NCBI RefSeq assembly: GCF_900148495.1
Contig: NZ_FTRU01000007.1
Span: 372,001 to 436,000, forward strand
DNA from: Negativibacillus massiliensis
GTDB lineage: Bacteria > Bacillota > Clostridia > Oscillospirales > Ruminococcaceae
DNA length: 64,000 bases
Direction of reading: 5' to 3'
The notes beneath the pieces are model-generated. The model had not been told where the DNA came from. It saw only the letters and a list, made by a program, of their open reading frames with translations, and did not search any database. The translations under genes and the position numbers were made by a program. Positions 3,098-30,828 of the stretch are shown here, piece by piece; within the stretch, counting starts at the first letter, position 1, and each line of letters starts with the position of its first letter.

Positions 3098-3340
3098 TCA
3101 AAGACCTCTCAGATAGTGTTCCAGACAATCTTCCATTGTCGTATCCGTCTCGGTGAAGCTGATCTTCACCACAGTTTTTCCGTCCAGATAACAATAGGGA
3201 TTTCTGATCTGCTTAATGAACTCCCTCAGCCTGTCCTCTCGCGGTGCCGCAGGATCAAGCCGGATGCTGCTTCTCTGAACGAGTGTGCTTCGGTCAACCG
3301 TTTTCGGGCTGACATTTTTCATTGTTTCAATGCCCATCAT
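3098..3340 (-). CDS. Small conserved ICE protein of unknown function
   Basis: The gene encodes 80 residues, starting at the ATG at 3340 after AGGAGG with a 10-base spacing. It is charged and soluble, with no signal peptide or membrane segment. Short proteins of similar sequence occur next to serine recombinases in clostridial ICEs, and some may be filed under DUF6870, but I am recalling that and cannot check it. The position just upstream of the recombinase promoter suggests a role in regulating or assisting recombination, for example as an excision-directionality factor. No DNA-binding motif is evident, so this is only a positional guess. Confidence 0.7.
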   Translation of the reverse strand: MMGIETMKNVSPKTVDRSTLVQRSSIRLDPAAPREDRLREFIKQIRNPYCYLDGKTVVKISFTETDTTMEDCLEHYLRGL

Positions 3341-3804: not shown

Positions 3805-3850
3805 CCTTTCACTTTACAACGGACATCTTTTTGCCGTTTGTTGAGTACCG
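3805..3850 (-). promoter_or_regulatory. Bipartite element motif, copy 1
   Basis: On the minus strand this reads CGGTACTCAACAAACG, ten variable bases, then GTCCGTTGTAAAGTGAA. Both blocks recur exactly at 16286-16330 in front of oriT and mobC. Here the motif begins one base after the sigma-factor stop codon and points toward the recombinase genes. The two conserved blocks with a fixed spacer look like a promoter for a dedicated sigma factor or a binding site for an element regulator. Confidence 0.6.
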
Positions 3851-3851
3851 C

Positions 3852-4334
3852 TCAAAAAATTCTTTGAAATTTTTTCTGCACCGCTGCTTTGAGGTCAAAT
3901 GCAGCTCTGATGCCGATGCCTTTCCTTCGGGCAAACTCTCGAAGAGTCAGTCCTTCACGGGTCATCGCAAGATACAATTCGCGCTGCTTCTCGGTCAGAA
4001 TGGAAAGAAGCTCCTTCTCTTTGAGGGCGGTAATCAGTTCCTCCATGCAGTCGCGGGAGTCTGCCAGCCATGCAGCGGACTTCACATCGTCCTCCGGCAT
4101 AGCGTCAAGGGACAGCACGGTATCAGAAATTTTCTCTGCGCCGTCCTCATCCTCAGAGGTGTTGTCAGAGCCATACGAGCGTCTGATCCGCTTTTCCTCT
4201 GCGCGAAGGATTCTCATAACCTTGCGGTCAACCTCGGAAACTTCGCCGGTTCGTTTCACGCGCACCATGCACTTGCCGTCCTCCGTAGTCCAGAGGTCGT
4301 AATCGAACGCGATAGGGGTCTTAGGGATTTTCAT
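3852..4334 (-). CDS. Sigma-70-like RNA polymerase sigma factor of the ICE
   Basis: The 160-residue protein has a C-terminal sigma region 4-type helix-turn-helix (LTEKQRELYLAMTREGLTLREFARRKG, split here as two helices near residues 113-140) and a short basic N-terminal part that would correspond to a reduced region 2. Factors of this kind are typical of Tn916/Tn1549-like elements, where they are thought to steer transcription of transfer functions. The gene is last in a leftward series that starts at the switch promoter near 5984. It is followed at once by the bipartite motif, which makes that motif a natural candidate target. The family call rests on the HTH and the context; the cognate promoter is inferred. 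Confidence 0.8.
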   Translation of the reverse strand: MKIPKTPIAFDYDLWTTEDGKCMVRVKRTGEVSEVDRKVMRILRAEEKRIRRSYGSDNTSEDEDGAEKISDTVLSLDAMPEDDVKSAAWLADSRDCMEELITALKEKELLSILTEKQRELYLAMTREGLTLREFARRKGIGIRAAFDLKAAVQKKFQRIF

Positions 4335-4542: not shown

Positions 4543-4785
4543 TTACTTGGTACGCGGTCGCAGTCTTCTCATATTCAGCACATCAAAGACTGTGATCCGC
4601 CCGCATTTCTTGCACTTGGATTCTACATGACCTCTCGTGTCCTCGTAGACAGCAATGGCATTATGCTGACAATAGGGACATTTCAGGTATCGGGGCTTTT
4701 GCTGGGAAATGGCAACTCTTGCCCTGCGGATTTTTTCGATCAGCTCCGGCGTCGGTTCCTGAACCCGAATGGATGCTCTCTTCAT
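4543..4785 (-). CDS. Small zinc-ribbon protein
   Basis: The gene encodes 80 residues. The start is the ATG at 4785, after GGAGG with 7-base spacing; it overlaps the stop of the preceding gene as TAATG, so the two are probably translationally coupled. The middle holds two CxxC pairs (CPYC and CKKC about 22 residues apart), which would form a zinc ribbon, and a basic C-terminus (RRLRPRTK). Proteins of this type often bind nucleic acid or RNA polymerase. The location just before the sigma factor gene fits a regulatory role, but the exact family is not recognised. Confidence 0.75.
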   Translation of the reverse strand: MKRASIRVQEPTPELIEKIRRARVAISQQKPRYLKCPYCQHNAIAVYEDTRGHVESKCKKCGRITVFDVLNMRRLRPRTK

Positions 4786-5513
4786 TACCACACCTCCAAT
4801 GGGTCAACATACTCACTGAATGGACGATCTACCATGTAGCCGAGCTGACGAAGGCGGATAGACGCCGTTGTCTTGGAGACACCGAACAACCGGCAGAAAA
4901 GGCGCAGCGTTAAGTGATCACCATACGAATACCTCCCCTCGTAATTGATCAGCGGCGTTTCTGCAAACCGACGCATTGCCAGGTCAACCTCTTTTTGAGG
5001 AAGCAGGATCGCCGCGCCCAAGACATTTGCTTGCCACTCGTTCCAGTCCTCGCGGGTTTTCAGCTCTCGCGGCGTATAGGCTGTCCGTGCGGAATATTTC
5101 ATTTCGCAGGAAGCCTTTACCTCTTCCGATTCCAGTTGGAAGAGAATCTGATGGGCGCACTCGTGGGCAAGGGTAAATCTGCGCTTGGCGCAGAGCCGCT
5201 GCACGTTGCCGGATCGAATGAAGCTCTCGTCCAAGATGACCTGATTACGCTTCAAAGCCAGTGTGCGCGTAATACCAAGTTCCGTGATCTTGTACTCAGT
5301 GTCGGCATAGGCAGTGACACCGCAGATGCTTCCATCCGGCGAGAGACGGGCGAATGATACGCGAAGACCGAGATAATTCTTTGCAAACTGATCAATGGGT
5401 GTTGGCAAAGCTGATCGGTCGGGCTTGTCCGCCTCATCCCCGAAAAAGAACCGATTGAAGTCCTTTGTTGTTGAGGCTGCAATTTCTTCAAGTTGGCGCT
5501 GGGATAAAATCAT
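4785..5513 (-). CDS. ImmA/IrrE-type (M78) metallopeptidase
   Basis: The 242-residue protein carries HECAH near residues 117-121, the zinc-binding HExxH site of ImmA/IrrE-family peptidases. Such enzymes cleave or relieve repressors of mobile elements, as ImmA does for ImmR in ICEBs1. I start at the ATG at 5513 because it follows AAAGGAGGA with good spacing; an upstream extension reads through the neighbouring gene. It overlaps the 86-residue gene upstream by ATGA and the zinc-ribbon gene downstream. The C-terminal segment (LTLRLFCRLFGVSKTTASIRLRQLG) looks like a helix-turn-helix. The peptidase call is good; the substrate is unknown. Confidence 0.85.
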   Translation of the reverse strand: MILSQRQLEEIAASTTKDFNRFFFGDEADKPDRSALPTPIDQFAKNYLGLRVSFARLSPDGSICGVTAYADTEYKITELGITRTLALKRNQVILDESFIRSGNVQRLCAKRRFTLAHECAHQILFQLESEEVKASCEMKYSARTAYTPRELKTREDWNEWQANVLGAAILLPQKEVDLAMRRFAETPLINYEGRYSYGDHLTLRLFCRLFGVSKTTASIRLRQLGYMVDRPFSEYVDPLEVW

Positions 5514-16285: not shown

Positions 16286-16330
16286 CGGTACTCAACAAAC
16301 GCCCTTTTTGTGTCCGTTGTAAAGTGAAGG
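16286..16330 (+). promoter_or_regulatory. Bipartite element motif, copy 2
   Basis: The sequence CGGTACTCAACAAACG, ten variable bases and GTCCGTTGTAAAGTGAA match copy 1 at 3805-3850 exactly in both blocks. It points toward oriT, mobC and the relaxase. A short hairpin GTGAA/TTCAC at 16324-16340 overlaps its right block. A promoter or activator site for the transfer genes is the likely reading. Confidence 0.6.
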
Positions 16331-16377
16331 GACATTTCACGGAGGAATCTTCGGGGAATACGATTTTGGGAGATTAG

Positions 16378-16468
16378 CAAGCAAATCCGGTGAGTACCCA
16401 CCGGAGAAAAATCAGTTAAGGGGACCCTGCCCTTAACATTAGATTTTTGCTTGTTGGGATAGTCCCAA
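16378..16468 (+). other. Putative origin of transfer (oriT)
   Basis: The gap between the SIMPL gene and mobC is packed with inverted repeats. Outer arms CAAGCAAA and TTTGCTTG (16378-16385 and 16446-16453) enclose TCCGGTG/CACCGGA (16386-16405) and GTTAAGGG/CCCTTAAC (16415-16437). TTGGGA/TCCCAA follows at 16454-16468. Repeats of this kind directly upstream of mobC and a relaxase mark oriT in mobilisable elements. The nick site cannot be placed from sequence alone. Confidence 0.7.
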
Positions 16469-16500
16469 ACCCTTCTAATCTTTACGACGGAGGGCGCAGC

Positions 16501-16830
16501 ATGGTACGAAGAACACGAGACATTCAGAAGAAGATTTGGCTGACACCACAGGAAGAACGAACGATTGCAAAGAAGATGGAAATGATCGGCACGGAGAACT
16601 TCGGTGCGTATGCAAGGAAGATGCTGATCGACGGTTACATCATTGTCGTAGACTACACAGAGCAGAAAAAGCTCGCCGCCGAAATCAACAGGATCGGCGT
16701 GAACATCAATACCGTCTGCCGCAGAATCAACTCGACGGGACGATTCTATCAGGACGATATTGACGAGCTGAAAGAAAAGATGGATGCGGTATGGCAGTTA
16801 CTAAAATCAAAGCAATCCGAGGAACTTTGA
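16501..16830 (+). CDS. mobC: MobC-family mobilisation accessory protein
   Basis: The 109-residue protein has the MobC pattern: an N-terminal DNA-binding part (KKIWLTPQEERTIAKKMEMIGTENFGAYARKMLIDG) of ribbon-helix-helix type and the C-terminal EINRIGVNINTVCRRINSTG segment. MobC binds oriT and helps the relaxase open the duplex. The start is the ATG at 16501 after GGAGGGCGCAGC. It overlaps the relaxase gene by 40 bp in another frame, so the two are made together. Confidence 0.92.
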   Translation: MVRRTRDIQKKIWLTPQEERTIAKKMEMIGTENFGAYARKMLIDGYIIVVDYTEQKKLAAEINRIGVNINTVCRRINSTGRFYQDDIDELKEKMDAVWQLLKSKQSEEL

Positions 16831-18155
16831 GCAAGGCAATCGCGTACATTCTGAATCCCGAAAAGACCGACGAGAAGCTGCTGGTCTCGTCCTACGGCTG
16901 TGCCAGCGAGACCGCAGCGCGGGAATTTGAATGGACGCGGAAAATAGCCGAGCAAAAAGGGATGAATCCGGTCAGGATCATAGCCCGTCATGTGATCCAG
17001 TCCTTTGAAATTGGAGAGGTCACACCGGAGCTTGCCCACGAGATCGGCAAGCAGTTTGCAGATGAAATCCTCGGAGGAAAATATGAGTATGTGCTGACCA
17101 CGCACATTGACAAAGACCATGTTCATAACCATCTGATTTTCAATGCGGTTGACTTTGTGAACTACCACGCATACAAGAGCTATAAGCGGATTTACTATGA
17201 TATGCGTGAGGTCAGCGACCGGCTCTGTAAGGAAAACGGTCTCTCTGTTATCCCTCCCTCTCAGAACAAGGGCATGGGCTACAAGGAGTACACCGAAGCC
17301 AAACGCGGCACGAGCTGGAAGCAGAAACTCAAGCAGACCATCGACCGGCTTGTCATTACAGCGAAGGACTACGATGACTTTCTGCGGCTCATGCAGGAAG
17401 CCGGTTATGAAATCAAGACCGGCAAATACATCTCCTTCCGCGCTAAAGGTCAGGAGCGGTTTACCCGGTCTAAAACCATCGGAGAGAACTACACCGAGGA
17501 ACGCATCAAGGAACGGATTGCCGGACGGACGCCCCGAAGAAGTCAGAGACAGACCACGCCGAAGGGCATCTCTCTCATCGGAGATATTCAGGAGCGGATC
17601 AGGCTCATCGACAGCAAGGGTTACGAATATAAAGCAAAGCTCACTATCCTCAAAGAAGCTGCACGGACACTCAACTATCTCACGGAAAACAACTTGCTCC
17701 AATACGCCGATCTTGAGAAGAAGGTCGAGGACGTTCACAGCTCCTATGACCGCACCGGCAAGGAACTGAAAGGCGTTGAAGCACGACTGCGGGAAGTCCA
17801 GCCGCTTATCAAAAACATCTCCAACTACCAGCGCCTCAAGCCCGTATATGACGCATTCCAGAAGGCAAAAGATAAGTCGGGTTTCAAAGCAAAGCACGAA
17901 GCCGAGCTTGTGATCTTTGAGGCAGCGAGAAGCACATTACTTGCCATGCAGGGCGATGAAAAACTGCCGAGCTTGAAGACACTGCAAGCGGAACAGCAGC
18001 GACTTCTTGAAGAGCAACAGCGGCTCTATGATGAACGTGCGAAGCTCAAAAAGGAAGCTCGGATGATCGACACCATGAAGGCAAATGTAGATATTTTCCT
18101 CAAGCCGAGTGTAGTCCAAGAGCCTGAGCAAATTCAAGATAATCAAAGAGAATAA
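16791..18155 (+). CDS. Relaxase/mobilisation nuclease (MOBP type)
   Basis: The 454-residue protein nicks oriT and pilots the transferred strand into the recipient. The N-terminal relaxase domain has SYGCASETAAREFEWTR, then the three-histidine metal site in HIDKDHVHNHLIFN near residues 104-117. The catalytic tyrosine is probably one of the early ones (AYILNP near 19-24). The C-terminal half, from about residue 245, is charged and coiled-coil-like. The type matches relaxases of Tn1549 and relatives. A strong terminator follows directly, closing the transfer-initiation unit. Confidence 0.94.
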   Translation: MAVTKIKAIRGTLSKAIAYILNPEKTDEKLLVSSYGCASETAAREFEWTRKIAEQKGMNPVRIIARHVIQSFEIGEVTPELAHEIGKQFADEILGGKYEYVLTTHIDKDHVHNHLIFNAVDFVNYHAYKSYKRIYYDMREVSDRLCKENGLSVIPPSQNKGMGYKEYTEAKRGTSWKQKLKQTIDRLVITAKDYDDFLRLMQEAGYEIKTGKYISFRAKGQERFTRSKTIGENYTEERIKERIAGRTPRRSQRQTTPKGISLIGDIQERIRLIDSKGYEYKAKLTILKEAARTLNYLTENNLLQYADLEKKVEDVHSSYDRTGKELKGVEARLREVQPLIKNISNYQRLKPVYDAFQKAKDKSGFKAKHEAELVIFEAARSTLLAMQGDEKLPSLKTLQAEQQRLLEEQQRLYDERAKLKKEARMIDTMKANVDIFLKPSVVQEPEQIQDNQRE

Positions 18156-18349: not shown

Positions 18350-18568
18350 ATGAAAGCAAGCTACAAAAAGTTGTGGAAACTGCTCGTCGATAAGGAAATG
18401 AGCAAGGGTGATCTTCATAAGGCGTCCGGTCTTTCTTCAAGCACAATGACCAAGCTCAGAAAAGGTGAAGACGTGTCAATGGAAGCTCTGAGAAAAATCT
18501 GCATTTGCCTTGACTGCAATATCGGTGACATTGTGGAGTTTGTCCCTGACAACACAACACAGTCCTAA
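18350..18568 (+). CDS. Small Cro/CI-type HTH regulator of the BREX operon
   Basis: The 72-residue protein is a single helix-turn-helix domain of the YozG/HTH_26 kind: MSKGDLHKASGLSSSTMTKLRKG followed by SMEALRKICICLDCNIGDIVEF. I start at the ATG at 18350, with GAGGTG six bases upstream. It is the first gene after the promoter and precedes brxA by about 50 bp, so it is the likely autoregulator of the defence operon. Many BREX loci use the larger WYL-type BrxR in this place; this is a different and much smaller protein. Confidence 0.85.
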   Translation: MKASYKKLWKLLVDKEMSKGDLHKASGLSSSTMTKLRKGEDVSMEALRKICICLDCNIGDIVEFVPDNTTQS

Positions 18569-18620
18569 ATATGGGACAGGAAATATGGTACAGTATGCTA
18601 TTAGGAATGGAGCAAATATA

Positions 18621-19226
18621 ATGGATCAGACGCACCCTTATAACGGCAGCTTAACTGCTGAACAGTTTCTCTTCTACGAGATAAGAATTGCTGCAAAATA
18701 CTATGTTTCTGGCTTGAAAATTGATGAGGCAATCGAGCGGATTAAGAAGAATAACCTCTTTCAATATCCAACAGAGAGACAAGTTTCCCGTTTGGCAAGA
18801 GCTTGTTATAAGCGGCTGGACGCGCTCGGCAACGATCAGCTTGTTCACGAGCTTGCCTCTGCACCAAATGAGATTGCAAAGCAGATCAATCTATACGCGG
18901 TGATGAGGTATAATCGTTTGGTCTGGGAGTTTATGATTCAGGTGATAGGCGAAAAATACCGAAATCAGGACATGAACTTCTCAAGGAAAGACATGAATGC
19001 GTTTTTTTCCAGATTGCAAGCACAGGATGATTCTGTTGCCGCTTGGAGTGATGCGACAATCACCAAAATCAAAAGTGTTCTCGTTCGGATGCTGATAGAG
19101 ACAGGGTATCTGGACGGGCTGAAAGACACCACGCTGAATCCCGTTTTTCTCTGTGAAGAACTTGAACGAGGTATCGAAGCAAACAACGATTATGATGCAC
19201 TTCCGGCATTTAATTACTTTAGATAG
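18621..19226 (+). CDS. brxA: BREX protein BrxA (DUF1819)
   Basis: The 201-residue protein matches BrxA in length, in its place as first BREX gene, and in sequence (LTAEQFLFYEIRIAAKYYVSGLKIDEAIERI at the start; FSRKDMNAFFSRLQAQD later). BrxA is a NusB-like, DNA-binding helical protein required for type 1 BREX in some systems. The start is the ATG at 18621 after GGAG; further upstream in-frame starts overlap the regulator gene. brxB follows 16 bp after its stop. Confidence 0.9.
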   Translation: MDQTHPYNGSLTAEQFLFYEIRIAAKYYVSGLKIDEAIERIKKNNLFQYPTERQVSRLARACYKRLDALGNDQLVHELASAPNEIAKQINLYAVMRYNRLVWEFMIQVIGEKYRNQDMNFSRKDMNAFFSRLQAQDDSVAAWSDATITKIKSVLVRMLIETGYLDGLKDTTLNPVFLCEELERGIEANNDYDALPAFNYFR

Positions 19227-19242
19227 GCGGGCGGACACGACC

Positions 19243-19797
19243 ATGATAAAACAGGAATTAGACAGGATCAAAGAGCGTATCTCGAATAAGGATTTCCTTG
19301 AAAACAAAGGACTGAGCAACGAAGTTGGTATCCATGTTTTCTGCTACAAAGCGGAGGATGAGTTGATCGTTCAGGATTATATTCGCAGATTAAAAAGTGA
19401 GGTGAACACGCCATATCGGATCATTGAGTGCGACCTTTATGAAGTGTTTCTCTCCCTTTTGGAGGACAAGCGCATTCTGAAATCAGTTGCAGGGTTAGAA
19501 GAAAAACGAGGCAAAAAGTATCTTCTGGATCAGTTGCAGAAGATCGCCACACCGGAAGCTCTCCTTGCCAAGATGGACTATTCACCCCATATCAAAGGGC
19601 AGGATGTTCTCTTCATGACAGGAATTGGAAAAATTCATCCGTTTATGCGTTCCCATAAGATGCTTGATAGTATGCAGCATCTCTTTGAAGACATCCCTAT
19701 TGTGATGTTCTATCCCGGAACCTTCAATGGACAGACGCTCAATCTATTCGACGAGTTCAAAGAAGGCAATTATTATCGGGCATTCAATCTGCTATAA
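19243..19797 (+). CDS. brxB: BREX protein BrxB (DUF1788)
   Basis: The 184-residue protein has the DUF1788 features: an N-terminal helix with RIKERISNKDFLENKGLSNEVGIHVFCY and a C-terminal SHKMLDSMQHLFEDIPIVMFYPGTFNGQTLNLF segment. BrxB is a core part of type 1 BREX with no known enzymatic activity and probably assembles with BrxC and PglZ. The start is the ATG at 19243. It follows brxA closely and is 13 bp from brxC. Confidence 0.92.
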   Translation: MIKQELDRIKERISNKDFLENKGLSNEVGIHVFCYKAEDELIVQDYIRRLKSEVNTPYRIIECDLYEVFLSLLEDKRILKSVAGLEEKRGKKYLLDQLQKIATPEALLAKMDYSPHIKGQDVLFMTGIGKIHPFMRSHKMLDSMQHLFEDIPIVMFYPGTFNGQTLNLFDEFKEGNYYRAFNLL

Positions 19798-19810
19798 TGG
19801 AGGTAGCAAC

Positions 19811-22800
19811 GTGAAAATACAGAATATGTTCCAGAAGGACATTGAAAGAGACATCAACGGCGTTATCAAGGTTATGCAGGATGATGACCGGAGTTTGGAA
19901 CAGGAACTCAGCGAATACATAATTACCAAGGAGCTTCGCCGTCACTTCCGCACATTCTTTGACAACTACACAAAGGCTATCGACCAGCCGACTGATAAAA
20001 TCGGCGTGTGGATTTCCGGCTTCTTTGGAAGTGGTAAATCTCATTTCCTGAAAATCCTCTCTTACCTGCTTTCCAATCAGGAAGTCTGCGGTAAAAGAGC
20101 GATTGACTACTTTGCAGACAAATTCGATGACCCGATGATGTATGCTCAGGCGGTTAAAAGTGTGTCCGTGCCTACGCAGTCTATCCTTTTCAACATTGAC
20201 ATCGAAGGTCCTCTCACGAAGGATAAGACCGCAGTGCTGCGCGTCTTTGCAAAGATGTTCTACAATCACTGCGGGTTTTACGGCGATGATCTGAAAATTG
20301 CCAAGCTGGAACGCTTCATTGAAAAGCAAGGCAAGACGCAGCAGTTCCGCGAAGCCTTTGAGAAGGTCAATGGTGCGCCTTGGACGGAGACTCGCGATTC
20401 CTTTGCGTTCTTTGAGGATGACATTGTTTCGGTTCTGCAATCTACGCTCGGCATGAGCGAACAGGCGGCGCGGAACTGGTTCAATGGTGAGGAAACGAAT
20501 GAGCTGAGCATCGCCCAGCTCGTAGCTGACATTCAGGAATATGTAGACGGCAAGGGCAAGGATTTCCGACTGCTGTTTATGGTGGATGAAGTCGGTCAGT
20601 ACATTGGTGACGATGGTGACTTGATGATCAATCTGCAATCTCTTGTAGAAGAGATTGGCATTCGCTGCCACGGCAAGGTTTGGGTCATGGTGACAAGTCA
20701 GGAGGCGATTGACTCCGTTGTCCATATCACCGGCAATGACTTTTCCAAAATTCAGGGACGCTTCAATACGCGCCTCAGCCTTTCCTCGTCCTCCGTTGAT
20801 GAAGTTATCAAAAAGCGTGTTCTGGCGAAAACAGATGCGGCAGATCAGCTTCTTCGCATGGTCTATGACAAGGAACACGCCGTACTCAAAAACCTCTATA
20901 CTTTCAACAATCCCGTTCTTGACATCAAGGGCTTTACGGATGGTGCGGAGTTTTCTGCAACTTTCCCCTTTGTGCCGTATCAGTTCATCGTGATCCAGAA
21001 GGTGCTTGCCGAGATTCGCAAGCACGGCAATTCCGGCAAGCATCTGTCCGGCGGTGAGCGTTCCATGCTCTCCGGCTTCCAAGAAGCAGCACAGGATGTG
21101 AAGGATAAGGATGAAAATGCTCTGGTTCCATTCCATCTTTTTTACAATACAGTTCACACATTCCTCGAAAGCCCCATCCGACGGGTTATCGACCGCTGCC
21201 AGACTGCGGCAGACAATCACGATGGGCTTGAGCAGCAGGATGTCAGCGTCCTGAAGCTCCTTTACCTTGTACGTTATATTGAGGACATCAAGGCGAATAT
21301 CGACAATATCTCCATCCTCATGATCGATGACATCCGCACAGATAAGATTGCGCTGCGGGCTTCGGTTTCCGCCTCGCTGGAAAGGCTTCTCTCGCAGAAC
21401 TACATTTCTCGCAATGGCGATACCTATGCCTTCCTGACGGACGAGGAACAGGACATTGCCATCGACATCAAGAACACACCGGTTGACAGCGCACAGGTCA
21501 TCACCAGCATTGCACAGACCGTTTACGGAGAAATCTATCCCTCCAAGAAATTCAAACATGACAAGTATGACTTCGCCTACGACCAATACATTGACGAGAC
21601 CCTGAACGGCTCTGCTTGCGGAGGAATGCGGCTTCGCATTGTTACCGTGGCAAGCGACTACTACGGTGCGCCGAACGAACGGCTTATTATGGATTCTCAG
21701 GTCAACAACGAAGCAATCGTTGTGCTCTCCAATGAGACGCCGTATTTTGATGAGCTGGAACAGGCGATGAAGATCCGCAAGTATGTCAAGCAGCGGAACG
21801 TATCTCAGCTTCCCGAAAGCATTCAGGACATTATCCGCAAGCGGCAGCAACAGGCGCGCATTCTGGAAGAAAGAGCGCGTAGCTATATTGAAAAAGCTAT
21901 CGTCGGTGCAAAGGTCATTGTCCACGGCGAGGTCATGGACATCAAGACTGGCAACGCGAAAGACAAGCTGGACGCCGCGATGAACGGTCTGGTTGAGAGC
22001 GTCTATTCCAAGCTCAACATGGTCAACCGGTTCGTAGAGAGCGACGCAGACATTCTTTCCATCCTGAATGGAACGGATGACGGGCAGATTGCCTTCACCG
22101 GTCAGGGCGCAAACAACGAGGATGCGCTGAACGAGATCAGCCAGTGGCTTGAGCTTCAAAATCAGAAGATGCTCAGCACCTCAATGGGCGATGTGCAGCG
22201 CCGGTATCAGGCGATTCCCTACGGCTGGCGTGAAATTGATATTGCTGCGCTGATTGCTCGTTTGATCTCTCAGCAGAAAATCTCCATCAAATACGGCGGT
22301 GCTTTGGTTGGCAAGGACGAGCGTAGACTGGTTGATTATCTGCGCAAAAAATCCGAGATCGACAAGGCAGTCGTTACCCGCAGAATTGCCCCGTCCGAGG
22401 ACCTTATGCGCAAGAGCATCGCCTTCCTCCGGGACTATCTTGGCGCGATGGATATTCCTTCTGATGAGGATGGGCTGATCCGCTTCGTGCTGGACACCTT
22501 TACCCAAAAGCAGGAGCATTATCAGGAGCTTCTTGATAAAGCCTATTCTGAGTTCCGTTACCCGGAAAAGGAAGTTGTCACAAAAGCCCACGACCTTATG
22601 AATGATGTTCTGAGTCAGCGTAGGGACAATGTTGCGCTTCTCACACGCATGGTGCAGCGTCAGGAAGACCTTCTGGATTGCTCTGAGGACATGGAGGGTG
22701 TGGAGTTCTTCTTCAAGTCGCAGCGGAGTGTGTATGATGAGGCACGGCGTCAGATGGAGCGCGTGAACAAGGAACGTGACTACTTTGCTTCTGATGCGGA

Positions 22801-23356
22801 TACATTGGAGGTCTTCCATACTATTGCGACCATCCTTGCACAGCCGAAGCCCTATGACCGCATTGGTGAGCTGCCGGAGCTGATTCAAAAGGTCAAAACG
22901 GCATACTCCGGTCTGCTGGATTTGAAGAAGGATGAGGTTGTCGAGAATATCCGTCAGTGTATGCAGGACGTTCATCAGCTTGCAACCGAGGCACGGGATG
23001 CTGGAGTTCTGCTACGTCAGGCAGACGATTACTTTGTCGGCAAGCGTGAGGCGGCGAAGAACGCATCTTCTCTCACCGAGTTGGACGCTATGATCACCCA
23101 GCTTCTCACCTACAAGGACAATATCTGCCGTCGCATGGAGGTTATGTCTGCATCTCATCAGGAACGCACTACCCCGGTCGGTACAGGTACGGCACAGCCC
23201 GCTCCGAAGATGCCGAAGATTACGACACTTCGCCGGTATGACCTCTGCTCTGTCAAGCGTCTGCAATCCAAGGAGGATATTGACCGGTACGTCGATGGAA
23301 TCCGCGAGAAGCTGCTGAAAACGTTGGAAAGCTGCGACGGCGTTCAGATCAACTAA
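19811..23356 (+). CDS. brxC: BREX protein BrxC, P-loop ATPase
   Basis: The 1181-residue protein is the large ATPase of BREX (DUF6079 type). The Walker A site GFFGSGKSH is near residues 69-77, and LLFMVDEVGQYIGD near 255-268 is the Walker B segment. Long coiled-coil regions fill the C-terminal half. The length and the brxB-brxC-pglX order fit type 1 BREX, in which BrxC forms part of the surveillance complex and is needed for both methylation and defence. The start is a GTG at 19811 with GGAGG seven bases before it. The gap to pglX is only 15 bp. Confidence 0.96.
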   Translation: MKIQNMFQKDIERDINGVIKVMQDDDRSLEQELSEYIITKELRRHFRTFFDNYTKAIDQPTDKIGVWISGFFGSGKSHFLKILSYLLSNQEVCGKRAIDYFADKFDDPMMYAQAVKSVSVPTQSILFNIDIEGPLTKDKTAVLRVFAKMFYNHCGFYGDDLKIAKLERFIEKQGKTQQFREAFEKVNGAPWTETRDSFAFFEDDIVSVLQSTLGMSEQAARNWFNGEETNELSIAQLVADIQEYVDGKGKDFRLLFMVDEVGQYIGDDGDLMINLQSLVEEIGIRCHGKVWVMVTSQEAIDSVVHITGNDFSKIQGRFNTRLSLSSSSVDEVIKKRVLAKTDAADQLLRMVYDKEHAVLKNLYTFNNPVLDIKGFTDGAEFSATFPFVPYQFIVIQKVLAEIRKHGNSGKHLSGGERSMLSGFQEAAQDVKDKDENALVPFHLFYNTVHTFLESPIRRVIDRCQTAADNHDGLEQQDVSVLKLLYLVRYIEDIKANIDNISILMIDDIRTDKIALRASVSASLERLLSQNYISRNGDTYAFLTDEEQDIAIDIKNTPVDSAQVITSIAQTVYGEIYPSKKFKHDKYDFAYDQYIDETLNGSACGGMRLRIVTVASDYYGAPNERLIMDSQVNNEAIVVLSNETPYFDELEQAMKIRKYVKQRNVSQLPESIQDIIRKRQQQARILEERARSYIEKAIVGAKVIVHGEVMDIKTGNAKDKLDAAMNGLVESVYSKLNMVNRFVESDADILSILNGTDDGQIAFTGQGANNEDALNEISQWLELQNQKMLSTSMGDVQRRYQAIPYGWREIDIAALIARLISQQKISIKYGGALVGKDERRLVDYLRKKSEIDKAVVTRRIAPSEDLMRKSIAFLRDYLGAMDIPSDEDGLIRFVLDTFTQKQEHYQELLDKAYSEFRYPEKEVVTKAHDLMNDVLSQRRDNVALLTRMVQRQEDLLDCSEDMEGVEFFFKSQRSVYDEARRQMERVNKERDYFASDADTLEVFHTIATILAQPKPYDRIGELPELIQKVKTAYSGLLDLKKDEVVENIRQCMQDVHQLATEARDAGVLLRQADDYFVGKREAAKNASSLTELDAMITQLLTYKDNICRRMEVMSASHQERTTPVGTGTAQPAPKMPKITTLRRYDLCSVKRLQSKEDIDRYVDGIREKLLKTLESCDGVQIN

Positions 23357-23371
23357 AGGAGAATTACGAGC

Positions 23372-26300
23372 ATGAATAAAGGTGCAATACAAAGATTTGC
23401 AATCTGGGCGCGGAACGAGCTGATCGCTCAGGTGTCGCAGAGAGCTTATCAGTATGGAATCACGAAGGAAGGCTGCGGCGAGGCAAACGCCGTGACGGTG
23501 GGCGGACGCGCACTGACTGGCGATGAGCAGAAGCAGCGCAAGGAGCTTGTCGATCAGATCCGCTCAAAAGGCTATACACAGGTTATGGAAGAGGTTGCCT
23601 ACACTTGGTTCAACCGTTTTATTGCCCTGCGCTTTATGGAGGTCAACAACTATCTGCCCTCCCACATTCGTGTCTTTTCCGACAGTACCGGCGCGTTCAA
23701 GCCGGAGATTTTAAGTGATGTCCTGCACCTTGACCTTCCGGGACTGAACCGGGAGAAAGTTGCGGAGTATATCGAAAGCAACGACACCGAAGGTCTCTAT
23801 CGCTATCTGCTGCTGACGCAGTGCAACGCACTGAACGACCCTCTTCCCCGTATGTTTGAGAAAATGGGCGGCTATACCGAGCTTCTGCTGCCGAACAACA
23901 TTCTGAAACAGGACAGCGTTCTCGGTCACATGGTTGCGGATATTCCCGAAAAGGACTGGACGGATCAGGTGCAGATCATCGGCTGGCTGTACCAGTATTA
24001 CAACTCCGAACTCAAGGATGACACCTTTGCTCTGCTCAAGAAGAATGTAAAGATCACCAAGGAACGCATTCCTTCTGCAACGCAGCTCTTCACCCCGGAC
24101 TGGATTGTCCGCTATATGGTTGAAAACAGCCTCGGCAGAATCTATGTAGACAAGCGCAAGAACGAGGGCATCTATGCGGACGGTCGCGGCTTGGATGAAA
24201 TGACTTGGCACGAAGCGGAATCTGAACGCATTGCAACAGAAACGCTGATTGCCGACAAAATGGGTTGGAAGTATTACTTGCCCGAAGCGGAACAGACGCA
24301 GGAAGTACGCAAGCAGCTTGACGAGATTCAGAACGAGTACGCCACGCTGGATGTCAAAGACATCAAGGTCATCGACCCCTGCATGGGCAGTGGTCATATT
24401 CTTGTCTATGCCTTTGATGTGCTGATGCAGATTTATGAGGCAAGCGGGTATAGCCAGCGGGACGCTGCGCAGAGCATTCTTGAAAACAACCTCTACGGTC
24501 TCGATATTGATGACCGTGCAGCGCAGCTTGCCTATTTTGCTGTCATGATGAAGGCACGGCAGTATGACCGCCGCGTATTCTCCCGTGGCATTCAACCTCA
24601 TGTGTATGCTATCGTCGAGAGCAATGGGCTGGACAGCAGCTCCGTTGAATACTTCACCAACAACGATCCGAAGCTCAAGAAGGACTTTGGAACTCTGATG
24701 GACGAGCTGCGAGATGCAAAGGAATATGGTTCCATTCTGAACATTTCTCAGGTGGACTTTGCCGCCCTCTATGCCAGAGTCGAGGAAGTGCGGGCTGACA
24801 TCAGTATGTTCCGCGAGATCGTGTTGAACAGCATTCTGCCGCTGATTCAGGCTGCTGAGGTTATGGCGCAGAAGTATGACGTGGTGGTCACGAATCCGCC
24901 GTATATGGGGATAAGTAACGCATCAGAAAAGCTAAATCAATATGCGAAAAAGGCTTATCCTATTTCAAGGTATGATTTAAGCACTATCTGCATGGAGAAA
25001 ACTCTTTCCATGTGCAATAAGACCGGAATGATGGCAATGATAAACATTCCTGTTTGGATGTCTAAGTCGAGTTTTGAAGACCTCAGATACTCATTGCTGA
25101 CTAAACATACATTTGTAAATATGCTGCATTGTGGAAGAGGTATTTTTGGATCGGACTTCGGTACAACTGCCTTTGTTATCAGAAAATCCTTTGAAAAAGG
25201 ATATGCTGCAACGTTCCATCAACTTTTTGATGAAATGGGAGCGGTTGATTCTGTTGAGCAAAAAGAACGGTGGTTTTTTGAAAGGAAAGGTCTCTACATT
25301 GCTGAGCAAAAGAAATTCTTGAACATTGGGAGCTATCCGATTGCTTACTCAACAAGTAAACGGCTTTTGGAGATCCTTGACACTGAAAAACCCCTGAGCG
25401 ACTTTGCGTACCCCCGTAAAGGACTAACTACGGGAGACAATGATACATTTATCCGCTTGTGGTTCGAGGTATCTGGTCAGAAATTCAGCATGACTGGTAA
25501 CGGGCGCAAATGGTTCCCGATGACCAAAGGAGGAGACTTCCGACGCTGGTATGGAAATAACGACTACGTTGTAAATTGGGAAAACAATGGATTTGCATTA
25601 AGGAACTTCAAGGATGAAGATGGAAAACTTCGATCCGTTTTGCGAAATACACAGTTTTACTTACGAGAGTGTATTTCGTGGAACGATACTACTGCAACCG
25701 GAAAGATTGCATTTAGGTATCAGCCCGAAGGGTATATTTCCAATGCGTCCGGACCGTGCGTATTCGCAGATCACGACTTGTTCTATCTGTTTGGACTTCT
25801 CAATTCTATTGTGTCGCAGAAGCTACTTGAAATTCTGGCTCCAAACATGAAGTTTGAAGTTGGTCAGATGGCATTGGTTCCGATTATAAAGAAGCAGTCT
25901 AACTATATTGATGATTTAGTCCGCAAGACAGTCGATATAGTGAAGTCTGACTGGGATTCGTTTGAAACCTCATGGGATTTCAAACTTCACCCATTGGTTG
26001 AAAACCAGCAATACGCCGCTACTTATCATTTCGATGAGCAAAACTCTCCTGCTCATCATATTAGCGCAGCCTATCAGATGTGGGTAGCAACAACTGAACG
26101 AAGATTCCAGCAATTAAAAACTAACGAGGAAGAACTCAACCGTATCTTCATTGACATCTACGGATTGCAGGGAGAACTTACGCCCGAAGTTGAGGACAAG
26201 GATGTCACTGTGCGAAAGGCTGATCTTGGAAGAGATATTCGTTCCCTCATTTCTTACGCCGTAGGATGTATGTTCGGGCGGTATTCGCTGGATAAGCCCG

Positions 26301-27058
26301 GTCTGGTTTTTGCCGGGTACAGCAAGATCGAGCAAACCACAAAGACGCTTGACGGTGAGGATCCTGAGCTTGAAAAGTTCGCAAAGCAGAACGCGGATGG
26401 TTCTGTCTCCTATGGCTCCTATTATCACGAGGTCAATCAGAATAACTATAAGTCCTTCTCGATTGACACGGACAATATCATTCCCATCTGTGATGATGAC
26501 TATTTCGACGATGACATCACCGGACGTTTTGTGAAGTGGGTCGAAACCGTTTACGGAAAGGAAACGCTGGAAGAAAACCTCAAGTTTATCGCAGATGCGC
26601 TCGGCGGCAAGGGAACACCCCGCGAGGTCATCCGAAGCTACTTCCTGAATGACTTCTATGCTGACCATTGCAGCACATACTCCGTTACTGGTTCGGGCAA
26701 GCGTCCGATCTACTGGCTCTTCGACAGTGGCAAGAAGAACGGCTTCAAGGCTCTGATCTATATGCACCGCTATCAGAGCGACCTTCTTGCCCGGATGCGA
26801 ACCGACTATGTTCACGAGCAGCAGGAGCGTTATCGCACCCAGCTTACCCATCTCGCGGACGCCATCGAACACGCCGGAGCTGCGGAGCGTGTGAAGTTGA
26901 CCAAGCAGCAGAAGAAGCTCCAAGAACAGGCACTTGAGATTCAGAAGTACGAAGAGAAAATTCATCATCTTGCCGATCAGAACATCCAGATCGACCTCGA
27001 TGACGGTGTGAAGCACAACTACGAGCTGTTTGCCGATGTGCTGGCGAAGATAAAGTGA
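23372..27058 (+). CDS. pglX: BREX adenine-specific DNA methyltransferase PglX
   Basis: The 1228-residue protein is the PglX methyltransferase that marks host DNA at a non-palindromic adenine site so that BREX spares it. The SAM motif DPCMGSGHILVYAFD is near residue 334, and the catalytic NPPYMG is at about 508. From the NPPY motif to about residue 890 the DNA is distinctly poorer in G+C than on both sides (sampled 60-base blocks about 35-38% against 50-57%). That central part should contain the target recognition domain, so the specificity module may have been exchanged. The gene itself is intact with no frameshift. RBS AAAGGAG precedes the ATG. Confidence 0.97.
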   Translation: MNKGAIQRFAIWARNELIAQVSQRAYQYGITKEGCGEANAVTVGGRALTGDEQKQRKELVDQIRSKGYTQVMEEVAYTWFNRFIALRFMEVNNYLPSHIRVFSDSTGAFKPEILSDVLHLDLPGLNREKVAEYIESNDTEGLYRYLLLTQCNALNDPLPRMFEKMGGYTELLLPNNILKQDSVLGHMVADIPEKDWTDQVQIIGWLYQYYNSELKDDTFALLKKNVKITKERIPSATQLFTPDWIVRYMVENSLGRIYVDKRKNEGIYADGRGLDEMTWHEAESERIATETLIADKMGWKYYLPEAEQTQEVRKQLDEIQNEYATLDVKDIKVIDPCMGSGHILVYAFDVLMQIYEASGYSQRDAAQSILENNLYGLDIDDRAAQLAYFAVMMKARQYDRRVFSRGIQPHVYAIVESNGLDSSSVEYFTNNDPKLKKDFGTLMDELRDAKEYGSILNISQVDFAALYARVEEVRADISMFREIVLNSILPLIQAAEVMAQKYDVVVTNPPYMGISNASEKLNQYAKKAYPISRYDLSTICMEKTLSMCNKTGMMAMINIPVWMSKSSFEDLRYSLLTKHTFVNMLHCGRGIFGSDFGTTAFVIRKSFEKGYAATFHQLFDEMGAVDSVEQKERWFFERKGLYIAEQKKFLNIGSYPIAYSTSKRLLEILDTEKPLSDFAYPRKGLTTGDNDTFIRLWFEVSGQKFSMTGNGRKWFPMTKGGDFRRWYGNNDYVVNWENNGFALRNFKDEDGKLRSVLRNTQFYLRECISWNDTTATGKIAFRYQPEGYISNASGPCVFADHDLFYLFGLLNSIVSQKLLEILAPNMKFEVGQMALVPIIKKQSNYIDDLVRKTVDIVKSDWDSFETSWDFKLHPLVENQQYAATYHFDEQNSPAHHISAAYQMWVATTERRFQQLKTNEEELNRIFIDIYGLQGELTPEVEDKDVTVRKADLGRDIRSLISYAVGCMFGRYSLDKPGLVFAGYSKIEQTTKTLDGEDPELEKFAKQNADGSVSYGSYYHEVNQNNYKSFSIDTDNIIPICDDDYFDDDITGRFVKWVETVYGKETLEENLKFIADALGGKGTPREVIRSYFLNDFYADHCSTYSVTGSGKRPIYWLFDSGKKNGFKALIYMHRYQSDLLARMRTDYVHEQQERYRTQLTHLADAIEHAGAAERVKLTKQQKKLQEQALEIQKYEEKIHHLADQNIQIDLDDGVKHNYELFADVLAKIK

Positions 27059-27074
27059 CGAAAGGAGTGTAACT

Positions 27075-28193
27075 GTGGGAACAACTAAAAAGCAGCATTA
27101 TGTGCCTCGTGTTTACCTCAAAGCGTGGGAAACATCAGTCACAACAGATCAAGAACCAAACAAGCAGATACAAGGTGTTTACAGACTTGACCACGATGAG
27201 AAACGTGGACATGGAACGCCAATAACTGCTGTACTTTGGGAATCCAGACTATATACTGTTGACTTTGCCCACAGCTACATCACACAATCTTGCCCAAAGA
27301 TACTGGCTGATTTTGTTGAGCAGATATATGAGATCCTGCGAATAAAGCGCACACCGCCTGTTTATGGAAAACTTGGTTATAGTGTAATCAAAACGAAATC
27401 AAGCATTCGCAAGCATCTCTCGGAGATTGACCAATGGGATTTCTTCTATGACACAGGAGATCGCGCCCGAAAGAACGCCATCCTGAATGATATTCATGCC
27501 ATCAACTCTTATTTGATTGAAGATGGTCTGGATTCGCATTTTGAAACACATTGGCAATCTCTATTGGAGCAGTTCATCACTGAAATGAACTCAGATGAAT
27601 CGGGAATTGATGGGAAAAGCGAGAGGCACATTTCTATGGAAACAGCAAAGGATATGCTTGCGTTTTTCTTTATGATGCTTTGTCGAAATCCCCGGTTTGA
27701 TGGGACAGGTATATATAGCTGGATTCGAGACGATATACTCGTTCCAGCTTTTCGCGGAGAACCTGATACACAGTCTGGCGAGAGCAACGGGAACGAAATT
27801 GAAGGATGGGCTGATGGCTTTATAGATGGCTTATGGTATGCAGAACTATACCGAATGCTATATAAAAACAAAGGCGGTCATTTCCATACATTCTTGGATA
27901 TTGGAAGTCAGCGGCTCCAAATGATTCTATTTGAGGCTTACGGCGATGCCGGAGACTTTATCACTTCGGATAATCCAGCGTTTCAATATCATAGCGTTCC
28001 AGAATCGAAAAACATGAACGGCTATATCTTTCCGTTGTCTCCCAAGTATCTGTTGTTCATAGGTTCTGGCAATCTTCCAATCAATATTGTCGATATGCGA
28101 TATGCTGATCGCAACACAGTTGCCTATTTCAATCAAGCCATCAGCCGAAACAAAGTCCAAACGGTCATTTCGCGTTGCAGGGACTTATCGTAA
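27075..28193 (+). CDS. DUF4238 protein inside the BREX operon
   Basis: The 372-residue protein begins GTTKKQHYVPRVYLKAWE, the signature of DUF4238, whose Gln-His-Tyr-Val-Pro start is its best-conserved feature. Later parts include TSDNPAFQYHS and YIFPLSPKYLLFIGSG, also typical. The start is a GTG at 27075 after AAGGAG, 16 bp behind pglX. DUF4238 is of unknown activity. It is not a core BREX gene, so its place between pglX and pglZ in the operon suggests an added effector or modulator. It is somewhat AT-richer than its neighbours, about 40-42% G+C in sampled blocks. Confidence 0.85.
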   Translation: MGTTKKQHYVPRVYLKAWETSVTTDQEPNKQIQGVYRLDHDEKRGHGTPITAVLWESRLYTVDFAHSYITQSCPKILADFVEQIYEILRIKRTPPVYGKLGYSVIKTKSSIRKHLSEIDQWDFFYDTGDRARKNAILNDIHAINSYLIEDGLDSHFETHWQSLLEQFITEMNSDESGIDGKSERHISMETAKDMLAFFFMMLCRNPRFDGTGIYSWIRDDILVPAFRGEPDTQSGESNGNEIEGWADGFIDGLWYAELYRMLYKNKGGHFHTFLDIGSQRLQMILFEAYGDAGDFITSDNPAFQYHSVPESKNMNGYIFPLSPKYLLFIGSGNLPINIVDMRYADRNTVAYFNQAISRNKVQTVISRCRDLS

Positions 28194-28225
28194 TGGCTGT
28201 CATTCGCAATTAAGGAGAAAGAAAA

Positions 28226-30814
28226 ATGTCCGAAGAACGCATACAATTTGATCTAATAGAACGCTTTACCGCCCCTCTACCTGAGTTCTATCAAAGACGG
28301 ATCATCTTCTGGCAGGACGAGGATCGAGAGTTCGAGTCTATGCTTGACGAGCTTTACATCCCCGATGTAACAATTCTCAAGCTCACCGGCACGAACAACT
28401 TTGCCGTGAAAAAGTTGCTTCTGCACGATGATCTAACAGACAATTATCTGATTTATAATCCCTTCTCTTATGCTGACCCAAAGGATAATTGGCTGCTGGA
28501 TATTGAAAAATTCAGTGAAGAATACCGTTCCGACCTCATCTCCACGCGCATGAATGAGCTGAATATTGAGGCAAGTCCGGCGATGCGCAAGACGGTAAAA
28601 CTGTACGCAAAATTCTTTGACAGCAAAGAGCGGATTGAAAGGCTGAAAAGAATTGGGCGAGAATACCATACACCGTTGCAGCTTCATATTGACATTATGG
28701 CTGTGCTGGCAGGACTAAACGGCGGCTCTGCGCAGGATGTATTTATTGCTGTCCTTTCTGCAGGACAGGGTGAGGAAAACAATGCCGTCCTCAGCAATAT
28801 CAAAAAGTTCGGCAACATTGACGCTTTCTGGCAGCTTGTCCGCAAGTACACGGGCTACATCCATGAGGATGAAAAAGCGCTTGACCTGTTCGCTGCCCAT
28901 GTGCTGCTGACCGCCCTTGCGCAGACGATGAATCCCAGCGTTCTCAAAGGCTTGGAGCGTTTCATCTCTGATTCCAACAAGGCGTATTGTTACAGTATTG
29001 TCCACGAATGGCGCAACCGCGAGGACAACGGTGCGCTCTGGGAATTGTGCCGCAGTGTGGAGCAGGAGTTGCATCTTGCTTCCCGATTTGAAAAGCAGGA
29101 TATTGAAACGCTGCTGACAGCAGACATTTTCCCGTCCATTCATGAGGTCATCCTGAGCCGCTTCTTCTCCGAAATTGCAGATCATGTGGTAAAGACCGAG
29201 CTGATGCTGAAAACTGCGGAAAACCGCCGCACTTCCGGATGGATTGAGCGGTTCGAGAACTATTATGACTGTCTCTACTATGTTGCAAAGATGCAGAACT
29301 TTTATCAGGAGAATGCAGCAGGCTTCCATATCGTAGAACCGAAAGTAATCTGGAAGCTCTATACGGAGAAGGCGTATGAGATGGATAGCTTCTATCGGCA
29401 CTTCCACTATGCCTTCGGATGCACTCTCAAGAACAGCAATGTGCTTCTGGAAGATAAGCTGAAACACGCAGCAGATTACGTTGAGGGGCTGTATCAGAAC
29501 TGGTTCCTCAAGGAGTTGACCGGCTGCTGGACAAAAGCAATTTCTGACAACCTTGCCGCATTGGGTTATGTGTCCGAGATCGGCAAACAAAGAGACTTCT
29601 ACTCTCACTATGTTAAGCCGCTTGCGGGGAAAAACTCCCGCGCTTTCGTGATTATATCCGACGCTCTGAGATATGAAGTTGCTGCGGAGCTATGCGATAC
29701 CATCACCCGGACAACCAAGGGAACAGCGAAGCTCGATGCTGTTCAAGCAGTTTTTCCCTCAATCACAAAATTCGGTATGGCGGCTCTTCTTCCGGGGCGA
29801 AAGCTGTCTGTCAATGACGGCATGGATGTTCTCGTGGACGAAATGCCCACCCGTTCTACTGATGAGCGTGGCAAGATACTCTGTGCTGCTAACATGAACA
29901 GCGTGGCAGTTCAATACATGGACGTTCTGAACATGAAACGCGCCGAGCGGCGTGAGCTTGTGAGCGGCAAAGAAGTCGTGTATATCTACCACAACACGAT
30001 TGATGCTATTGGTGACAAAGCTCCAACTGAGAAAAAGGTGTTTGATGCTTGCGAAGACGCTATGCAGGAGCTTTCCAATATTCTTCGTATTGTCATCAAC
30101 GATATGCAGGGAACAGACATTTTCATCACCGCAGATCACGGTTTCCTCTACACATACAGTCCTTTGACCGAAAGCGATAAGCTGGGTAAGGACGCGATCA
30201 GCGGCAAGGTCTATGAAATTGGACGGCGGTATGTGCTGGCAGAACCCTCCGCAGCAGCAGAGTACCTTGTGCCGGTTCAGCTTGACGGTGAGATCGTCGG
30301 TACTCCGGTCAAGGGCTACACGCCTTTTGATTCCACACGCATACGGGTTTCTGGTGGCGGTGAGAACTATGTCCACGGCGGTATCAGCTTGCAGGAGCTT
30401 GTTGTGCCTGTTATTAGCTTCAAGAATCTCCGCTCCACAAGCAAGAAGTATGTGGAGGTTTCCAACGCAGAATTGAAGCTGTTGAGCGAAAGCCGCAAGG
30501 TGTCCAACCTGCTATTCTCTCTGGATTTCTACCAGCGTCAGCCAGTCGGGGAGAAGATTCAGCCCTGCACCTACTACATCTATATGACGGATGATGAGGG
30601 CGTGGTCATCAGTGACCGTCAGACTGTCATTGCAGACCGCACAAGCACAAATGCTTCCGAGCGCGTCTTCCGTGTGCGCCTCAATTTGAAAGCCGGTGCC
30701 TATGACAAAAACAAGATTTACCGCCTTGTTATTGCCAACGATACAGATGTCCCGGAAGAGGCTGAGTTCCATATAGACATTGCCTTTGCGGATGACTTCG
30801 GATTTGACCTGTGA
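28226..30814 (+). CDS. pglZ: BREX alkaline phosphatase-like protein PglZ
   Basis: The 862-residue protein is PglZ of type A, the member of the alkaline phosphatase superfamily found in all BREX systems. Metal-binding sequence is seen in FVIISDALRYEVAAEL near residue 473 and in DIFITADHGFLYTYS near residue 630. The N-terminal 450 residues are helical. PglZ is required for BREX methylation and defence; its substrate is not settled. The ATG at 28226 follows AAGGAG. The length is normal for the family. Confidence 0.95.
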   Translation: MSEERIQFDLIERFTAPLPEFYQRRIIFWQDEDREFESMLDELYIPDVTILKLTGTNNFAVKKLLLHDDLTDNYLIYNPFSYADPKDNWLLDIEKFSEEYRSDLISTRMNELNIEASPAMRKTVKLYAKFFDSKERIERLKRIGREYHTPLQLHIDIMAVLAGLNGGSAQDVFIAVLSAGQGEENNAVLSNIKKFGNIDAFWQLVRKYTGYIHEDEKALDLFAAHVLLTALAQTMNPSVLKGLERFISDSNKAYCYSIVHEWRNREDNGALWELCRSVEQELHLASRFEKQDIETLLTADIFPSIHEVILSRFFSEIADHVVKTELMLKTAENRRTSGWIERFENYYDCLYYVAKMQNFYQENAAGFHIVEPKVIWKLYTEKAYEMDSFYRHFHYAFGCTLKNSNVLLEDKLKHAADYVEGLYQNWFLKELTGCWTKAISDNLAALGYVSEIGKQRDFYSHYVKPLAGKNSRAFVIISDALRYEVAAELCDTITRTTKGTAKLDAVQAVFPSITKFGMAALLPGRKLSVNDGMDVLVDEMPTRSTDERGKILCAANMNSVAVQYMDVLNMKRAERRELVSGKEVVYIYHNTIDAIGDKAPTEKKVFDACEDAMQELSNILRIVINDMQGTDIFITADHGFLYTYSPLTESDKLGKDAISGKVYEIGRRYVLAEPSAAAEYLVPVQLDGEIVGTPVKGYTPFDSTRIRVSGGGENYVHGGISLQELVVPVISFKNLRSTSKKYVEVSNAELKLLSESRKVSNLLFSLDFYQRQPVGEKIQPCTYYIYMTDDEGVVISDRQTVIADRTSTNASERVFRVRLNLKAGAYDKNKIYRLVIANDTDVPEEAEFHIDIAFADDFGFDL

Positions 30815-30828
30815 AGGAGAAGCAGAAG

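Follow-up and report, generated by a model that had tools for sequence, protein, structure and literature searches.

The two copies of a shared motif in this element are most readily explained as promoters of one regulon, belonging to a promoter family in which a constant core is joined to a swappable box that would be read by the sigma-like activator of the ICE; related arrays in satellite elements would answer the activators of helper ICEs. We put the probability of this reading at about 0.8. In the mechanism that we propose from sequence comparison, RNA polymerase would read the constant block 2, within which TAAAGT would act as a weak -10 element, and the ICE's sigma-like protein would occupy block 1 (-46 to -30) through a region-4-like HTH, giving the -35 contact that the host sigma factor lacks. 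Copy 1 would fire an excision operon (a leader with a pemK RNA, DUF6870, recombinase) and copy 2 a transfer operon (mobC, relaxase). Ahead of their mob operon, satellites with neither the sigma gene nor a T4SS would have from one to eight promoters of this kind, each with the box of a different ICE type. Since boxes and their matching HTHs differ between ICEs, the regulons would stay separate even with several ICEs per cell, and since the boxes of a satellite would be those of different ICE types, we propose that its mob operon fires when any of several helpers is active.

In the window, by which we mean the whole 64,000-nucleotide stretch of DNA that was analysed, the motif reads CGGTACTCAACAAACG-N10-GTCCGTTGTAAAGTGAA (16 bp, 10 bp and 17 bp) and is present at 3850-3808 on the minus strand and at 16286-16328 on the plus strand, with both blocks exact in the two copies. 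A sequence-only reading of this DNA had reported identical blocks at two places, and this was confirmed: allowing up to 3 mismatches reveals no further match in the window, the motif appears in 0 of 100 dinucleotide shuffles of the window, and the whole 2.88 Mb genome contains these two copies only. The size given there, 45-46 bp, is reduced to an exact common unit of 43 bp, the surplus being G/A bases at the flanks, where the copies differ by one base. Copy 1 comprises block 1, the box CGGTACTCAACAAACG of the putative -35 region (3835-3850), which varies between elements and is common within one; a spacer, GCAAAAAGAT (3825-3834); and block 2, GTCCGTTGTAAAGTGAA (3808-3824), which is invariant across elements and contains the -10-like TAAAGT (3816-3811). 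In copy 2, upstream of the oriT region on the plus strand, the same parts lie at 16286-16301 (block 1), 16302-16311 (spacer, CCCTTTTTGT), 16312-16328 (block 2) and, inside the latter, 16320-16325 (TAAAGT). The spacer is 10 bases long and differs in sequence between the copies as described, but it is not free: copy 1, like nearly all sites, has an A-rich one.

Each copy faces its own module, as had been proposed. Downstream of copy 1 on the minus strand are a leader with a pemK RNA (RF02913; 3556-3626; 70.6 bits), the gene for a small DUF6870 protein (3098-3340; PF21757, 1.6e-28), which is the first gene, and that for the large serine recombinase of the excision module (1249-2883; PF07508/PF00239/PF13408). 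Downstream of copy 2 on the plus strand, a leader with inverted repeats (16386-16405 and 16415-16437) forms the putative oriT region between the copy and mobC (16329-16500), and is followed by the genes for a MobC/NikA-like relaxosome protein (16501-16830; PF21983/PF05713) and a MobA/VirD2-like relaxase (16791-18155; PF03432, 8.5e-37). The sigma-like gene had been placed one base before copy 1, and its stop codon at 3854-3852 indeed leaves a single base (3851) between them. With this relaxase, a TraG/VirB4-like ATPase, a CD1107-like protein, NlpC/P60 and large serine recombinases, the element has the gene set of a Tn1549-like ICE. A BREX-like cluster (BrxA, BrxC, Eco57I-type methylase, PglZ, BrxL) lies at 18510-32898, immediately 3' of the relaxase gene and in the same operon direction as copy 2. 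Near the end of the window (61557-63443, 61411-61495 and 63901-64000, minus strand) are a group II intron reverse transcriptase and intron RNA matches (RF00029, RF02004), the second of which extends past the window end.

Of the 11 other ICE loci scanned, 10 likewise have a pemK RNA downstream of the site (L030, L031, L032, L033, L034, L037, L066, L078, L188 and L199), and in the exception, L141, the locus ends just past the site. Its position in all these ICE types is ~200 nt past the putative promoter, in the excision-operon leader. RF02913 may be an ICE excision-leader element, perhaps a terminator or an antiterminator, that is not specific to pemK toxin genes.

Comparison of about 250 related sites, in a sample with many MAG contigs, showed that the two blocks differ in kind. 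The sequence-only reading had taken both as conserved, promoter-like blocks; their likeness to a promoter is upheld by the comparison, but they are not equivalent, block 2 being constant and block 1 a swappable specificity box. Genes for distant homologues of the 160-aa sigma-like protein (47-53% identity) are followed by an almost intact block 2 (AAAAATGTCCGTTGTAAAGTGAAGGGG), with block 1 swapped for other sequence. Block 2 alone (TGTCCGTTGTAAAGTGAA, 18 bp) occurs in 107 stretches of species-representative genomes, nearly all of them in Clostridia mobile elements. The matches outside Clostridia (Chryseobacterium, Pseudolabrys and Campylobacterales; L094, L099, L119 and L127) look like chance, since by our own arithmetic an 18-mer should turn up there about 7 times by accident. 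A site with no more than 1 mismatch is present in 26 of 394 order-level genomes, against 4 matches for a reversed-pattern control. The sigma-like gene is present in 13 of the 394, 12 of which have the site (in the 13th the gene is broken by a stop codon), and the site occurs in 14 of the 381 genomes that lack the gene.

Across 86 non-redundant sites, the strongest bases of block 2 lie in TGTCCGTTGTA and at the T of AGT, and six A-rich positions stand ahead of the block. TAAAGT itself is most constant at its second position (A) and its last T, as a -10 element would be. If TAAAGT is taken as the -10, the box spans about -46 to -30, the seat of a -35-binding domain. A plain sigma-70 promoter as the sole explanation was rejected, as neither window copy was reported by a consensus scan for -35/-10 hexamers. 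None of the papers that were searched contains CCGTTGTAAAGTG.

The predicted reader of block 1 is the 160-aa sigma-like activator encoded at 3852-4334 on the minus strand. Its AlphaFold2 model consists of a beta-beta-beta-alpha domain (residues 12-54), a flexible or disordered linker and an HTH (97-159; pLDDT ~91), and the top Foldseek matches are sigma region-4/-35-binding domains, with a probability of 1.0 and modest E-values of about 0.02-0.1. Apart from this HTH the protein consists of the small N-terminal domain and the linker, among which we found no region 2, the part responsible for core RNA polymerase binding and -10 recognition, and no Pfam family. Of the features of the sigma-70 family it thus has region 4 and lacks region 2, so that the earlier description of an element-encoded sigma factor is correct for the region-4-like HTH and too broad for the whole protein. 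Because no region 2 is visible, we infer rather than observe its way of working with RNA polymerase. In an alignment of 13 sigma-like proteins the N-terminal domain hardly varies, and the C-terminal part does. Searches for the gene returned nothing in phages and one record in plasmids, and no further class emerged from viral contigs when these were searched with a profile of the sigma alignment. An 82-aa zinc-ribbon-like protein, encoded at 4543-4791 (minus strand) in the window, is the neighbour of the sigma-like gene in almost every one of these ICEs and a possible partner of the activator.

The proposed link between the motif and the adjacent sigma-like gene is strongly supported by related ICEs: in almost all intact ones that we examined the gene has a site after it, and the box of this site is common within the element and co-varies with the HTH of the protein. 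We refer to the site after the sigma-like gene as S and to that before oriT as T; the two are divergent and typically lie about 11-16 kb apart (7.6 kb in one ICE and 26 kb in another). For six ICE types, which provide six independent pairs, the S and T boxes differ by a mean of 3.5 mismatches of 16, compared with 9.4 between types, and the true pairing alone scores so low among the permutations (1/720). The same comparison made with the spacers, as a control, gives a weak signal (3.7 vs 4.2, 87/720). Oscillibacter ER4 has three sigma-like genes, each followed by a different box. For 19 sigma-like proteins, the more two recognition helices differ, the more their boxes do (Mantel r=0.61, p=5e-5; 0.59 when partial on the N-domain), and the correlation is 0.49 (p=2e-4) and 0.43 (p=0.0015) after pruning of close relatives. 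The box hardly co-varies with the near-constant N-terminal domain, and that correlation is gone on pruning. The best single columns for co-variation (140, 143, 144, 148, 139 and 129) are all in the HTH. Individual proteins illustrate the pattern. The window protein and that of L066, whose overall identity is only about 60%, have AFDxKAAVQKKF-like helices and the boxes TACTCAACAAACG and CACTCAACAAACG; L149, L031, L214 and L226 have PYDYAK..SxSxVxQHI and the box TACTTAAAAA in common; and L041 and L032 have DTRDAIRKKF and the box ACCCGCTnATTC in common.

Many sites in elements without the sigma-like gene lie directly upstream of NikA/MobC genes. Among 53 non-ICE loci, classed as satellites through tblastn to a small set of mob proteins, a single site is present in 13 and a tandem array of 2-8 in 40, counting in weak array sites (3-4 mismatches) that owe their inclusion to where they lie. 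In the ICEs, the oriT loci, eight in all, always have one site each. Relative to the mob genes, 166 sites are on the same strand and 0 on the opposite one, and the spacing in most arrays is about 56-75 bp. The boxes inside one array differ, with a mean distance of 8.8 of 13. When the 32 non-redundant satellite boxes were compared with ICE boxes, 8 were within 2 mismatches (null mean 0.2, maximum 3, in 500 column permutations) and 12 within 3 mismatches (null 1.4, maximum 6). The other 20, including the common TACCAAGTTTT as well as GTGTCACCATTCG and GGGTTAAAATTTT, have no close ICE partner in this sample. Viral contigs, in which we sought an ICE bearing TACCAAGTTTT, yielded non-ICE sites only, so the helper for this box is still a prediction.

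The sigma-like gene is present in 0 of the 31 satellite loci of at least 5 kb, and when a VirB4-like protein was used to check satellite loci for a T4SS, only L102 matched, through a VirB4-like fragment; L102 may be something other than a satellite. It had been suggested that persistence of the motif in elements lacking the sigma gene would refute the promoter interpretation. Such persistence is literally what is seen, in all 31 of these loci, but the boxes there are diverse and match those of many ICE types, which argues for hijacking of helper activators and not for independence from activators. The islands have neither an activator nor a T4SS of their own (L102 with its fragment aside), and box matches to ICEs, well above the null, would place helper-type boxes in their mob promoters.

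We examined two kinds of satellite. One (L195, L193) encodes MobC, RepA_N, an IstB-like ATPase and a tyrosine integrase adjoining ychF, with no recognised relaxase; the other (L187, with 8 sites) encodes NikA/MobC, a relaxase and a serine recombinase. An example of the first kind, delimited in Faecalibacterium sp. I4-3-84 (NZ_CP094466.1, 1481649-1492760; L195 with L276), comprises 11.1 kb between 25-bp direct repeats and holds the tyrosine integrase adjoining ychF, MobC, RepA_N, the IstB-like ATPase and a type III restriction-modification system. An integrase, att repeats, a mobilization gene and the absence of a T4SS identify it as an integrative mobilizable element and, with no relaxase recognised, as a relaxase-less satellite. 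Its boxes are ACCTGCGTTTTG and ATACTCAACAAACG, and the latter is the box of an ICE in the same chromosome. Multi-site regions with the boxes GGGTTGTGATTTGC and GGGGTTAACTTTGGC are present in Oscillospiraceae/Clostridia MAGs of an isolate series named Lapin (L057, L071, L087, L088, L101, L104, L130 and L145).

Two properties of the sites count against the proposed mechanism. The most conserved stretch, TGTCCGTTG, lies upstream of the putative -10 and exceeds the needs of an ordinary promoter, and the start codon in satellites is so near block 2 (usually about 15-20 nt past it, and 4 nt in L111) that the leader would be very short. Both would suit promoters with another reader, an ECF-like holoenzyme that takes GTCCGT as its -10 and the upper half of block 1 as its -35, and in which the element protein, perhaps with a partner, wholly replaces host sigma. 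The sequence AAC, followed after about 15 nt by GTC, resembles ECF spacing, and transcription would then start upstream of the Shine-Dalgarno sequence in satellites. However, the 160-aa protein has no region 2 domain, L268, a very diverged homologue, has lost GTCC and kept TTGTAAGGTGAAGGGG, and few bases are as constant as the A and final T of TAAAGT; we regard this arrangement as unlikely. The long conserved element upstream of operons could instead be an operator for a different regulator, whether this represses or activates. The element's XRE/M78 pair is one candidate, and an M78-like gene does accompany the sigma-like gene in ICEs. It is the recognition helix of the sigma-like protein that box identity tracks, though, orientation is strict (166 to 0), and no common regulator was recognised in satellites, so that an operator seems very improbable. 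Least credible of all is that the two modules share a repeated element that serves recombination, is accessory to oriT or forms an RNA hairpin. The blocks of the window class are partly complementary (CAAACG/CGTTG), but satellite copies lie directly upstream of start codons, and a hairpin between the blocks was rejected, since block 2 has no pairing partner in the remaining box classes and shuffling the boxes does not weaken the folding (-4.1 vs -4.8 kcal/mol after shuffling).

A separate doubt concerns the arrays, which might have been left behind by repeated recombination with ICE promoters, or might titrate the activator as decoys, with no multi-helper sensing. Satellite boxes are near enough to ICE boxes for capture, and in many array sites block 2 is imperfect, with 2-4 mismatches. 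Against this, the differing boxes of each array all face the mob operon, and arrays are found in unrelated satellite families (MobC-RepA_N-Int and relaxase-serine recombinase), leaving leftovers or decoys a doubtful explanation. Under the promoter-family reading, the satellites are probably listening for several helper ICEs. We consider it likely, if with somewhat less assurance than the promoter family as such, that an array of up to eight promoters with one core and a varied box for each ICE family acts in gut Clostridia satellites as a multi-input OR-gate that widens helper range, and that natural ICE pairs provide a one-domain protein-DNA recognition code.

The targets of the sigma-like proteins of Firmicutes conjugative transposons are an open question (PMC3158075, PMC7438776), for which we offer a promoter family whose proposed key bases and residues can be put to the test. 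The way in which mobilizable elements sense helpers and set their helper range is likewise open (PMC11389934); here the boxes would name the expected helpers, making helper range readable from the array sequence. Defence genes are among the cargo, as type III and type I restriction-modification in the satellites that we examined and as the BREX-like cluster in the window ICE, so that in gut bacteria the spread of such systems would be under the same control. In Clostridia, natural box/HTH pairs could find a further use as orthogonal expression parts.

Several known systems resemble the proposed one in part. At the middle promoters of phage T4, MotA/AsiA combine the -10 of host sigma with a phage protein as the upstream contact that replaces the -35; the logic is similar, with no sequence relation claimed, and here there are many box/HTH pairs. 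In the split sigma factor SigO/RsoA of Bacillus subtilis, a region-4 protein needs a region-2 partner, whereas no partner gene was recognised here. The sigma-like proteins of Clostridioides difficile conjugative transposons are likewise ICE-borne and have a -35-binding HTH as the sole recognisable domain (PMC3158075, PMC7438776). Their target promoters were described as unknown (PMC3158075, PMC7438776), the consensus sequences being still to be identified (PMC7438776); a target promoter family is proposed here. We found no description in the literature of a sigma-like version of helper sensing, of co-diversified boxes or of mixed-box arrays. The use of a helper's activator by satellites is itself a known principle: SGI1 and MGI islands hijack AcaCD of IncC plasmids (PMC4207636, PMC4605294, PMC5704250). 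As here, these islands lack transfer machinery of their own and have promoters that answer the master activator of the helper, and some encode a relaxosome protein only, like the MobC-only satellites. The SGI1/AcaCD system, however, involves one helper activator family, which is FlhDC-like, whereas the activators considered here are sigma-region-4-like, the boxes are diversified by helper, and one satellite can carry an array of mixed boxes.
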